A stretch of 40,347 nt of DNA from Coriobacteriales bacterium (GTDB taxonomy: Bacteria > Actinomycetota > Coriobacteriia > Coriobacteriales > UBA8131). The stretch spans positions 1-40,347 of the forward strand of contig JAISLY010000036.1 in the NCBI GenBank assembly GCA_031277035.1, in the 5' to 3' direction. Below, one piece after another: positions 29,310-36,356 of the stretch. Made by a program: the position numbers and the translations under genes. Positions within the stretch are counted from its first letter, which is position 1; each line of letters begins with the position of its first letter. A model generated the notes under the pieces. The model was not told the origin of the DNA. It worked only from the letters and a program-made list of their open reading frames with translations, and did not search any database.

Positions 29310-31317
29310 GCCGCAGCAGGGCGTGCCGCAGCAGGGCGTGCCGCCACAGCAGGGCGTGCCGCCGCAAGGGATGCCGCAGGGTGTGCCGCCGCAGCAGGGC
29401 GTGCCGCAGCAAGGGATGCCGCAGCAGGGCGTGCCGCAGCAGCAGGGCGTGCCGCCGCAAGGGATACCGCAGGGTGTGCCGCCGCAGCAGGGCATGCCGC
29501 CGCAGCCGTCCCAGGGCGGCATAAGCCCCGGGGCGCACCACATTCACCCCGCCTACGTGATAACAAACACTCTGCGAACCTCTCTTGCCATTATTATCGC
29601 GGTCTTTTTCAGCCTCACCGGCGCTCTTCCCGCCCTTCGTTCCGGCAGGGTGGACCCACAGATAATCGGCCTTGTTCTCGGGGGCGTTGCGATCCTCCTC
29701 CTTTTGCTTATCGCTCTGATTATCTTCTTTTCCTATCTTTCCTATCGACGCTTCCTTTGGGAGCTGACCGATTCCGACATTCATATCTACTCGGGTATCC
29801 TCTTTAAGAAACAGGTTCACATCCCCTTCACCCGCGTGCAGTCCATCGATTTTCACGCAGACGTCGTCGAGCGGATACTCGGTCTGGTCAAGCTGAAGGT
29901 CGAGACCGCGGGCGGCGCGGCCAACATGGGGGTTATCATTCCTGCGCTCAAATTGAGCGAAGCCGAAGTCCTGCGCGCCGAAGTCTTCAGGCGCAAGCGC
30001 GCGGGTTCGCAGGGTATGGCCGCAAACGGCCGTGGTGCTGCAGCGGGCGGGGCGGCGTTGGCAGCGGGCGGGGCGGCGGTCGTGGCGGGCGGGGCGGCGT
30101 TGGCAGCGGGTGCGAACGCCCCGAGCCTTCTTCCTCCCCTCTCCGGCAGGCCCGCTGCCAACGCCTCCGTAGATACCCTCGTCAATGAGGTCGGTCGTGC
30201 GTCAGAGGACTTCCGCGGCCTGTTCGCCGACAGCTTTGAGGAGGACGCCCCCGTCGAATACGAATATGGGCTCAGCGCCAAGGAATTGCTCCTTGCGGCG
30301 ATCTCGGGGGACCGCACGCTCGTCATGCTTGCAGTTGTCGTCGGCTTCTTCTCGCAGATACCGCAATACATCAACCTCTTTGGCCTGGAGGATGATGCCG
30401 AGCGGCTCCTCCTCCAGGCAACCATGCGTGAGGCTGTACCCTACCTCATCGTCGGTGTGCTCCTGTTCGTGCTCCTCCTGTTCCTGCTCACCGTCGCGGG
30501 CACGGCAATCAGCTATGGTGGCTTCAAGTGTCGGCGGCGCGGTGGGCGCATCGAGATTGAGCGCGGCCTTCTCGCCCATCAATATAGAGGCGTAGCCATC
30601 AGGCGCGTGCAGTCGGTGGAGATACGTCAGGGTTTTATCCGCCGTCTGATGGGATACGCCGAGCTTCGCCTGAAAACCATCGATTCGATGGGCGATACCA
30701 ATCAGCAGAACAACGGACAGGCCACACAGATGGCCGGTTTGGTCGCGCATCCTTTTGTAAAGCTGGATAAGATTGCTCCCATTCTTGTTAATCTCGTGCC
30801 GGAGTATGTCGAGTGCCCCGCTGCTGATGAGGTGAGGTCTCTGCCGCCGGTCGCGCGGCGTCGTGCCTTCATGCGGCTTGCGCTTATTCCCATGCTGTTC
30901 ATCGGGGCCGTTCTTCTCGCTCTGGACTTCTTTGTCCTGCTGCCCTTCGTGCCCACGCACATCGTCCATCCGCTTCTCATCATATCCTGGACGGTGTACG
31001 GGGCCGTCTTTGCGATTTGCATCGTCGTCGCGCTTCTCTGGTATCGCCATGCTGCCTATGGCTACAATCGTACGATGCTCTACCTCCGGCAGGGGGCACT
31101 TGGCATGACCACCTCAATCATCCCGCGCAGGAAGATACAGTATGGCGGCAATCGGCAAAATCCCTTCCAGCGGCTTGCGCGGGTGGCCTCCATCACGGCA
31201 ACGACGGCGGCCGGCATCTCCGGCACGACGACAACGCTGCGCGACCTGCCCTCAAAGGAGGCCGACGCCTTTATCGACTGGCTGCGCCCGCGCGGCAAAG
31301 GGGGCGAGCTGGGCTAG
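29302..31317 (+). CDS. YdbT-like membrane protein with PH domains and repeat-rich N-terminus
   Basis: A 671-residue partner of the preceding gene. The first 70 residues or so are QQGVP/PQGMP repeats; two helices then lead to a bPH2 domain (ITRVQSIDFHADVVERILG style text). An Ala/Gly repeat, more helices, a second PH unit (RRVQSVEIRQGFIRRLMGYAELRL), further helices and a third (SIIPRRKIQYGGNRQNPFQR) follow. The ATG overlaps the previous stop by 8 bases, right after AGGAAG, which is very close to the start. The repeats are cytoplasmic by prediction. Role unknown. Confidence 0.86.
   Translation: MFRPQQGVPQQGVPPQQGVPPQGMPQGVPPQQGVPQQGMPQQGVPQQQGVPPQGIPQGVPPQQGMPPQPSQGGISPGAHHIHPAYVITNTLRTSLAIIIAVFFSLTGALPALRSGRVDPQIIGLVLGGVAILLLLLIALIIFFSYLSYRRFLWELTDSDIHIYSGILFKKQVHIPFTRVQSIDFHADVVERILGLVKLKVETAGGAANMGVIIPALKLSEAEVLRAEVFRRKRAGSQGMAANGRGAAAGGAALAAGGAAVVAGGAALAAGANAPSLLPPLSGRPAANASVDTLVNEVGRASEDFRGLFADSFEEDAPVEYEYGLSAKELLLAAISGDRTLVMLAVVVGFFSQIPQYINLFGLEDDAERLLLQATMREAVPYLIVGVLLFVLLLFLLTVAGTAISYGGFKCRRRGGRIEIERGLLAHQYRGVAIRRVQSVEIRQGFIRRLMGYAELRLKTIDSMGDTNQQNNGQATQMAGLVAHPFVKLDKIAPILVNLVPEYVECPAADEVRSLPPVARRRAFMRLALIPMLFIGAVLLALDFFVLLPFVPTHIVHPLLIISWTVYGAVFAICIVVALLWYRHAAYGYNRTMLYLRQGALGMTTSIIPRRKIQYGGNRQNPFQRLARVASITATTAAGISGTTTTLRDLPSKEADAFIDWLRPRGKGGELG
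29308..29515 (+). repeat. 15-bp based tandem array in the 5' end of the YdbT-like gene
   Basis: CAGCAGGGCGTGCCG units and variants with inserted CCG or CAG codons encode QQGVP and PQGMP pentapeptides. A longer block ending in GGTGTGCCGCCGCAGCAG is duplicated within the array, so expansion occurred on two scales. Confidence 0.88.
30043..30110 (+). repeat. 21-bp tandem array inside the YdbT-like gene
   Basis: GCGGGCGGGGCGGCG starts at 30043, 30064 and 30085, with a partial unit at 30106, giving a 21-bp period. It encodes an AGGAALA heptapeptide linker between two domains. Confidence 0.88.
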
Positions 31318-34280: not shown

Positions 34281-35288
34281 TTGAGACAGGCGTATCCCAA
34301 CGATACAGACTGTCGAGCGATGGCACAGACCGCCGTCGACGCGGTTCGTGGACGCATACACACCGTCGCCGTCTTGCTTGGCGGTACCAGCGGTGAGCGC
34401 CCGATTTCTTTTGCCGGCGGCATCAACGTGGCACACGTGCTTGAGGCCGCTGGCTTGGCCGTGATGCGCATCGATCCGGCTGAAGACGACTGGCTCGCCC
34501 AGTTGCAACAGTGTGCGCCGGATGTCGTTTTCATCGCATTGCACGGCCAAAACGGCGAAGACGGCACCGTGCAGGGCCTGCTCGACCTTCTCCACATCCC
34601 CTATACCCACAGCGGAGTACTCGCAAGCGCGCTTGCTATGGACAAAGAGCGGAGCAAGGTGCACTATCGCGCGATGGGCCTTGCGGTGCCGGCGAGTGTG
34701 CCGGTGTGCCGGGGTGAGCATGTCGAGCTGAACGCGCTTATCGAGGTCGTTGGGCTGCCGTGTGTGGTCAAGCCGGTCTGCGACGGGTCGTCCCTTGGCG
34801 TCGCGATTCCCAAGACAATCGAAGCATTGACGGTGGCCCTTGAGGAGGCCTTCGCCATCGCCAGAGAGGTCATGGTCGAGGAGTTCATCGCTGGCGTAGA
34901 GGTCACGGTGCCTGTGATTGGCAACACGCGAGGACAGGCTCTGCCGGTCATCGAGATTATCCCTGCCGCCGAATTCTACGACTATGACTCCAAGTACCTC
35001 GAAGGGGGCTCCCAGCATATCATCCCGGCGCGGATTACCGCAACACAGACGACGCTCTGCCAGCACGCCGCCGTCTGCGCCCACGAGGCGCTGGGCTGCC
35101 GTGGCGTATCGCGAACCGACCTCATCGTCAGTCCCGATGGCATACCCTATGTGATTGAGACGAACACGATACCCGGCATGACCAACACCTCACTGGTTCC
35201 GGAATCGGCTCAGAAAGCGGGGCTTGAGCCGAGCCTGTTCTACCAGTATCTGCTCGCTTTGGCTCTGGAGGCGCAGGACGGTTTGTAG
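34281..35288 (+). CDS. ddl: D-alanine-D-alanine ligase
   Basis: Ddl joins two D-Ala for peptidoglycan. Motifs: GGTSGERPISF near the N-terminus, HGQNGEDGTVQGLLDLL, VVKPVCDGSSLGV, EVTVPVIG and the C-terminal IETNTIPGMT. I propose TTG at 34281 behind GGAGAGGAG; an ATG at 34320 is an alternative. Length (335) suits the family. A longer frame upstream runs through the repeat leader and is unlikely. The last codons resemble the units of the intergenic array that follows. Confidence 0.92.
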   Translation: MRQAYPNDTDCRAMAQTAVDAVRGRIHTVAVLLGGTSGERPISFAGGINVAHVLEAAGLAVMRIDPAEDDWLAQLQQCAPDVVFIALHGQNGEDGTVQGLLDLLHIPYTHSGVLASALAMDKERSKVHYRAMGLAVPASVPVCRGEHVELNALIEVVGLPCVVKPVCDGSSLGVAIPKTIEALTVALEEAFAIAREVMVEEFIAGVEVTVPVIGNTRGQALPVIEIIPAAEFYDYDSKYLEGGSQHIIPARITATQTTLCQHAAVCAHEALGCRGVSRTDLIVSPDGIPYVIETNTIPGMTNTSLVPESAQKAGLEPSLFYQYLLALALEAQDGL

Positions 35289-35381
35289 GCGCGCGGCGGC
35301 CCTGTAGGCGCGCGGCGGCCCTGGAGGCGCGCGGCGGGGCTTGAGGCGCGGAGCGCCCTGGAGGCGCAGGGCGGTTTGTAA
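35287..35381. repeat. 18/19-bp tandem array after ddl
   Basis: AGGCGC-led units start at 35269 (within ddl), 35287, 35306, 35325, 35344 and 35362, spacing 18, 19, 19, 19 and 18. The last unit repeats the final 24 bases of ddl with two changes. It lies in the gap before the thioredoxin-reductase-like gene. Confidence 0.88.
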
Positions 35382-35390
35382 CACTTCGTA

Positions 35391-36356
35391 ATGATTGGGG
35401 ACTTTGTGTACGACATTGCAATCGTTGGAGCGGGGCCAGCTGGCCTTTCCGCGGCGATAACGGCTCGCGCACGTAACAAAACGGTGCTGCTCGTCTCCAA
35501 CAAACCACAGGACAATCCGCTTGCCGCCTCATCGCGGGTCGATAACTATCCCGGCATGCCCGGCGCCACCGGCCTGCATCTTCTCAAGTGCATGGTCGAG
35601 CACGCCGATGGGCTTGGCGCGCACTTCGTCTACGCCCGGGTTATCGCCGTACTGCCAATGGGCACGCATTTCTCCGTCACAAGTTCCGATGCGGTGCTCG
35701 ATGCGCGCGCCGTCATCCTTGCGCCCGGCGCACAGCGCGCCAAGCCCATCGAGGGCGAGCGAGAATTCCTGGGTCGCGGCGTGAGCTACTGTGCAACCTG
35801 CGATGGCATGTTGTATCGGTCGGCCACCGTTGCGGTCGTCGGTCTGAACGCAGAAGCGGTGGCAGAGGCGAACTTTTTGGCCGGCTTGGGCGCCAAGGTG
35901 GTCTTTCTCGCTCCCGGGAACTCCAGGCAATCCGGAACATCGGGAAACCTCAAGACGCCCGAAGGAGCCGAGGGAGTCGAAGGAGCCAAGACAGTCGAGG
36001 GCTCCGGAGCGCCACACGGCCTGAGCAGAGACATCTTTGTCCAGGAGGGCCGTGCGCTTGCGGTCAAAGGTGGCGCAACGGGCGTCACCGAGCTGCAGTT
36101 CCTGGAAAACGGCACCCGGGCAAAGCGGAGCATTCCCTGCCAGGGCGTCTTCATCCTGCGTGACTCTATCGCGCCGAGCGCACTCATCGCCGGGCTGGAG
36201 CTCACGGAGGGCGCAATATCCGTCGACCGTCGGATGCGTACGAACATCGAGGGCGTCTTTGCCGCGGGCGACTGCACAGGCGCACCCCTGCAGGTGGCAA
36301 AGGCGGTGGGAGAAGGACAGCTCGCCTGCTTTTCTGCCGTTGAGTTTTTGGGGTGA
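35391..36356 (+). CDS. thioredoxin-reductase-like flavoprotein
   Basis: A two-domain flavoprotein of the TrxR family. GAGPAGLSAA (residues 13-22) binds FAD, the redox pair is CATC (134-137), and the C-terminal AAGDCTGAPLQVAKAVGEGQLA is intact. The middle domain differs: VGLNAEAVAEANF replaces the GGGDSA NADPH loop, and the HRR motif that follows is absent. A low-complexity insertion (about residues 178-209, TPEGAEGVEGAKTVEG) interrupts this domain. It may use another electron donor such as ferredoxin or reduced flavin. The start at 35391 lacks a good site; GTG at 35406 behind GGGG is possible. Confidence 0.85.
   Translation: MIGDFVYDIAIVGAGPAGLSAAITARARNKTVLLVSNKPQDNPLAASSRVDNYPGMPGATGLHLLKCMVEHADGLGAHFVYARVIAVLPMGTHFSVTSSDAVLDARAVILAPGAQRAKPIEGEREFLGRGVSYCATCDGMLYRSATVAVVGLNAEAVAEANFLAGLGAKVVFLAPGNSRQSGTSGNLKTPEGAEGVEGAKTVEGSGAPHGLSRDIFVQEGRALAVKGGATGVTELQFLENGTRAKRSIPCQGVFILRDSIAPSALIAGLELTEGAISVDRRMRTNIEGVFAAGDCTGAPLQVAKAVGEGQLACFSAVEFLG

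Follow-up and report, generated by a model that had tools for sequence, protein, structure and literature searches.

A tandem array between ddl and trxB in a repeat-rich Coriobacteriales genome: a probable origin from the last codons of ddl without a general preference for gene ends

Simple tandem duplication arises by replication slippage at short homologies. Two-copy cases of this kind are found at other gene ends of the genome studied here (e.g., L165 3388–4437, a gene end present twice with a 40-nt shift and 45 nt matching), whereas the array located between ddl and trxB has more copies and shows more drift. Among the prokaryotic satellites with long repeats, most have units in multiples of three inside genes, as stated in PMC6749651, and the bacterial minisatellites or VNTRs presented there share with our case the short, local, and degenerate array (18–19-nt units here) as well as genic units that are multiples of three. 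Measured against these, the ddl array differs in having its first unit in the end of a housekeeping gene, in belonging to no family and being unique in its genome, and in lying in a genome whose array density is high relative to most relatives. The tandem repeats of Bacillus, as outlined in PMC8161180, have constant units of 20–21 or 51–53 nt and form families; they too are tandem arrays outside coding sequence, and in many of them the unit length is no multiple of three, but in our genome the unit sizes vary freely and the ddl array is a single one. Titles and abstract openings retrieved in a literature search contained no description of tandem copies of bacterial gene ends, which is no proof of their absence. 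Prokaryotic satellites have thus already been described, and the ddl-trxB array is a further, newly found example, in which the origin of one intergenic array appears cleanly visible, its first unit being linked to codons that are conserved in a housekeeping gene.

The window, i.e., the whole stretch of DNA analysed (40,347 nt, contig JAISLY010000036.1, here C51), belongs to a Coriobacteriales MAG (GCA_031277035.1) of 1.82 Mb in 62 contigs, with 72.7% completeness and 4.5% contamination. The gene order ddl-trxB is common to the window and its relatives; the named relatives in the genome collection are mostly Coriobacteriales MAGs, several of them with isolate codes that presumably refer to termite-gut samples. 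In the window, the two genes are separated by a spacer of 117 nt, given the GTG start of trxB that was chosen by homology (an in-frame ATG lies upstream at 35391). The features of the locus are collected in Table 1.

Table 1. Coordinates of the genes, array units and spacer remainder at the ddl-trxB locus of the window
Feature	Position	Strand	Basis or remark
ddl, D-alanine-D-alanine ligase	34320–35288	+	Pfam PF07478 and PF01820; gene call; start by codon score
Source stretch, end of ddl (codons A-L-E-A-Q-D-G-L-stop)	35262–35288	+	sequence match; A-L-E by homology
U0, ddl unit, 18 nt	35266–35283	+	unit alignment
U1, 19 nt, contains the ddl stop TAG	35284–35302	+	unit alignment
ddl stop TAG	35286–35288	+	gene call
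U2, 19 nt, same sequence as U1	35303–35321	+	unit alignment
U3, 19 nt	35322–35340	+	unit alignment
U4, 18 nt	35341–35358	+	unit alignment
Distal copy of the ddl end: U5 (35359–35376, 18 nt), then TGTAA	35355–35381	+	sequence match
Spacer remainder, 24 nt	35382–35405	+	GGGGA ahead of the GTG start
trxB, FAD/NAD(P) oxidoreductase, thioredoxin-reductase-like	35406–36356	+	PF07992; ddl-trxB synteny in relatives

The last 24 nt of ddl (35265–35288, CTGGAGGCGCAGGACGGTTTGTAG) recur at 35358–35381 (CTGGAGGCGCAGGGCGGTTTGTAA) with 22/24 identical positions and an offset of 93 nt, which places the distal copy in the reading frame of ddl and confirms the two-change recurrence noted in the preliminary description of this DNA. 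In its longest extension, the match comprises 24/26 identical positions (35262–35287 and 35355–35380). The local score of this outer copy (21) was equalled by none of 20,000 Markov shuffles of the spacer (maximum 16) and by none of 6988 other 117-nt segments from both strands of the own-genome sample (maximum 14.5). When a 23-nt pattern of the copy was searched with up to 3 mismatches in the whole 1.82-Mb assembly, two hits were obtained, forward only and both at the ddl-trxB locus. A dispersed repeat family (REP/MITE-like) was considered and rejected, the pattern being restricted to this locus and the next best match in the genome having an E-value of only 0.195.

The units are arranged head-to-tail with lengths in the range that defines a tandem array (~ 7–100 nt), and the GC content of the array is very high. 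TRF reported the array at 35287–35367 with a period of 19, 4.3 copies, and 84% matches. Identity to U0 amounts to 13/19 for U1 and U2, 14/19 for U3, 13/18 for U4, and 17/18 for U5, while the inner units are identical to one another at 14 to 19 of 19 positions, versus 13 to 15 when compared with the end units. The likeness of the inner units to U0 or U5 was equalled by 28 to 200 of 20,000 shuffles (moderate evidence). The earlier proposal, in which they would be degraded versions of the ddl end, is therefore plausible as far as this moderate likeness to U0 goes, although they are mostly closer to each other. A second weak copy of ddl coding sequence was observed inside the array (35217–35231 and 35334–35348, 14/15 identical, offset 117 nt), near the limit of chance.

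For comparison, 23 other distinct ddl-trxB junctions were used, the nearest ddl being only about 57–59% identical to that of the window (in the same-genus genome G001, the ddl homologue is distant, with 39% identity). The residues A-L-E are present at the Ddl C-terminus in 15 of the 23 related junctions, and their codons in the window (35262–35270) lie within the copied stretch; because these conserved codons sit inside it, copying probably went from the gene to the spacer. The relatives' spacers measure between −8 and 169 nt (median 31, n = 23), and the 117 nt of the window minus the 93-nt array leave 24 nt, likely the original ddl-trxB spacer. The array was found in none of the 23 related junctions, and its DNA gave matches in three of 32 family genomes (E 3.5e−4 to 0.003), on contigs other than that of ddl. 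Since these matches are few and weak, the array is, on sequence comparison, specific to the lineage of the window, in which it most likely grew from the 3′ end of ddl, judging from the copied A-L-E codons, the array-free spacer length that fits the relatives, and the lack of this array at the related junctions. This part of the preliminary description was thereby upheld. The case named there as contrary evidence, the same array in relatives with a different ddl end, was encountered in none of the 32 family genomes, which is a weak test at the ddl distances given above.

Our preferred reading, to which we give a probability of about 0.82, is that the array is a local minisatellite that began as a tandem duplication of the final ddl codons, as part of a general process that does not target gene ends. 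The last codons, with the stop or right up to it, would have been duplicated in tandem, probably by replication slippage or unequal exchange. Because the first copy would preserve the reading frame and stop of ddl, the extra copies behind it would be selectively near-neutral, and being near-neutral they could multiply and drift. An inner 19-nt unit would later have been amplified (U1 = U2), the outermost copy would have kept the ancestral sequence together with its original link to the trxB spacer, and the probable driver would be the general tendency of this genome toward tandem duplication; the order of these events is our reconstruction. Two observations speak against parts of this account. 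First, the inner units for the most part resemble one another more than the end of ddl, so another source is possible for them. Second, the last unit has been conserved far better than the inner units; a single array that simply drifts would not be expected to show this, and either a later amplification of an inner unit or a second, late copying of U0 has to be assumed.

As to the source of the array, the same explanation has a sub-variant with another order of events, in which ddl originally ended at the distal copy. Here, ddl would have grown in frame, in steps of 18 nt (L-E-A-Q-D-G), into a longer Ddl that ended at the TAA at 35379–35381, until a G-to-T mutation in U1 (TGGAG to TGTAG) restored a short protein and the rest became spacer. 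This order would fit the offset of 93 nt (31 codons) with a frame uninterrupted between the TAG and the distal TAA, the nature of the three differences between 35262–35288 and 35355–35381 (one synonymous, one D-to-G, one stop-to-stop), the distance of a single base between U1 and TGGAGG, and the longer Ddl C-terminal tails of some relatives (G019, G011). However, open frames are not unusual, as at least 30 open codons follow the stop in 178/340 own genes and the array stretch was open in 3095/5000 shuffles; an offset divisible by three has a one-in-three chance; each of the three 19-nt units shifts the frame; and the Ddl of most relatives ends within a few residues of A-L-E. We regard this order of events as possible but unlikely. 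Translation of the array by read-through of the TAG was also considered and rejected, such an open frame being commonplace in the own genome. Clearly less probable still is that an older spacer array was captured when ddl lost its old stop, the gene now ending in the first unit of the array: in G010, G018, and G009, the stop follows directly after A-L-E or G-L-E, so A-Q-D-G-L may be new, but the copied stretch starts before the end of the conserved A-L-E, which belongs to ddl by homology.

The regular 18–19-nt spacing and the GC-rich sequence could also point to a functional array between ddl and trxB, i.e., an RNA structure, a terminator, or protein-binding iterons, yet the predicted fold of the spacer was no better than that of shuffles (z = 0.30), neither a terminator nor an Rfam match was found in it, and the sequence is unique in the genome and not conserved in relatives, which makes such a function very improbable. 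The search of the ddl-trxB spacer for a promoter was likewise negative. Least probable of all is an artefact of MAG assembly; assemblies are known to go wrong at short repeats, but the copies differ from one another except for U1 and U2, the array (about 117 nt) is roughly as long as one short read, so its invention is unlikely, and similar arrays are present in other MAGs of the family.

The preliminary description had extended the origin from ddl to a wider pattern, with gene termini as the source of arrays. In a sample of 411 kb of the own genome (342 gene calls, home-made caller), each gene tail was compared with the 150 nt downstream (score of at least 12.5), together with gene heads and with six mid-gene points per gene. 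Downstream copies were detected for 12/318 tails (null 0.13%), upstream copies for 10/298 heads (null 0.07%), and downstream copies at 32/1470 mid-gene points (null 0.38%), the latter from 23 genes; at a score of 15, the corresponding numbers were 7/318, 9/298, and 22/1470. Copy shifts were divisible by three in 30 of the 32 mid-gene cases and in five of the 12 tails. If two thirds of the mid-gene duplications are lost to frame-breaking, the underlying mid-gene rate would be at least as high as that of the tails.

The 160 TRF arrays of this sample were distributed as 100 genic (128.5 expected under random placement) and 47 intergenic (16.3 expected), with six over a stop (6.1 expected), two over a stop and a start (3.3 expected), and five over a start (5.8 expected); the ddl array is counted as intergenic rather than stop-crossing, as TRF places its start at 35287. 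Gene ends do get copied, but without preference, because heads and mid-gene points show similar copies and the total of stop-crossing arrays (8 vs. 9.4) is near expectation. The idea of duplication specific to gene ends was thus not borne out, tail copies being no commoner than those of heads or mid-gene points. The comparison of intergenic arrays with the adjoining gene ends that had been suggested earlier did yield matches at p ≤ 0.01 for nine of 52 array/3′-end pairs (about 0.5 expected), but 5′ ends matched as well (7/48), and most intergenic arrays had no match to a neighbouring gene end. This suggests that the apparent rule of array growth out of gene ends reflects the choice of sites inspected.

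Array periods were divisible by three in all 100 genic arrays, a figure that is partly by construction because a caller requiring open frames favours in-frame arrays, versus 20/47 intergenic ones. Given this difference, copies that break the frame are removed within genes and tolerated outside. With so many tandem duplications in the genome, some are bound to lie across stops, and these can persist as the gene remains intact; other gene tails of the own genome also carry stop-crossing duplications. An array at L163 15615–15736 (36-nt unit, 3.4 copies) runs from a gene end over the stop into the next start and extends two proteins, in different frames.

The repeat-rich background was quantified as arrays per 100 kb. 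The own genome reached 38.9 (160 arrays in 411 kb), while 19 of 20 other genomes had 0 to 15, the exception being G005 with 35.0 (40 kb sampled); values of 26.0, 34.6, and 7.9 were obtained for G001, G011, and G010, respectively. In the controls, no array was present in 50 kb of E. coli and 0.0 per 100 kb in a Markov version of the own sample. Tails with a downstream copy numbered 4/98 in G011 (ddl included) and 2/103 in G001, and within the sampled stretches 0/116 in G010 (its ddl end lying outside the sample) and 0/29 in G005. Loss of repair genes was considered as a reason for the repeat richness and rejected: within the order, only 5/60 genomes contained MutS_V, and the own genome (an incomplete MAG) has RecJ, so that neither distinguishes the species rich in repeats from those poor in them. 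All five genomes with the MutS_V domain belong to the family of the window, including G001, G010, and G011. A repeat-rich lineage such as this could be used to examine how the need to keep the frame selects among duplications.

Two related junctions carry duplications of their own. In G010 (L004), an unrelated duplication with a 37-nt shift crosses the ddl stop and the trxB start, and in G011 (L135), a 28-nt copy of the ddl tail, unrelated to the window array, lies behind the stop; none of 60 Markov controls matched the duplication score in either junction or in that of the window. Two further junctions (p 0.017 and 0.033) scored only 10 and 11 and were counted as chance. Tentatively, and with more doubt than belief, stop-crossing duplications could be a recurrent, tolerated source of spacer DNA and protein ends in this Coriobacteriales lineage, having arisen independently in three of 24 ddl-trxB junctions. 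If so, any period would be permitted as long as the first copy holds the stop, and a later point mutation could shift the gene end between copies.

Several smaller observations were made along the way. The 37-nt duplication of G010 has left the spacer with a decoy start codon and a short ORF. At three genes of G011 (L261 95–1594, 4988–6670, and 10644–11522), the last 27 to 38 nt are repeated right behind the stop, and in two of these genes the repeated stretch takes in the stop codon. Three stretches of the own genome (L162, L167, and L168; C25 1–20000 and C58 20001–60000) have 0 arrays in 60 kb, with no clear difference in base composition from the rest, while the density elsewhere reaches up to 15 per 20 kb and the window has 27 in 40 kb. 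A dense array with a 93-nt period (window positions 29310–29505) lies at the called start of the gene at 29416–31317; this start may be miscalled and the array coding.
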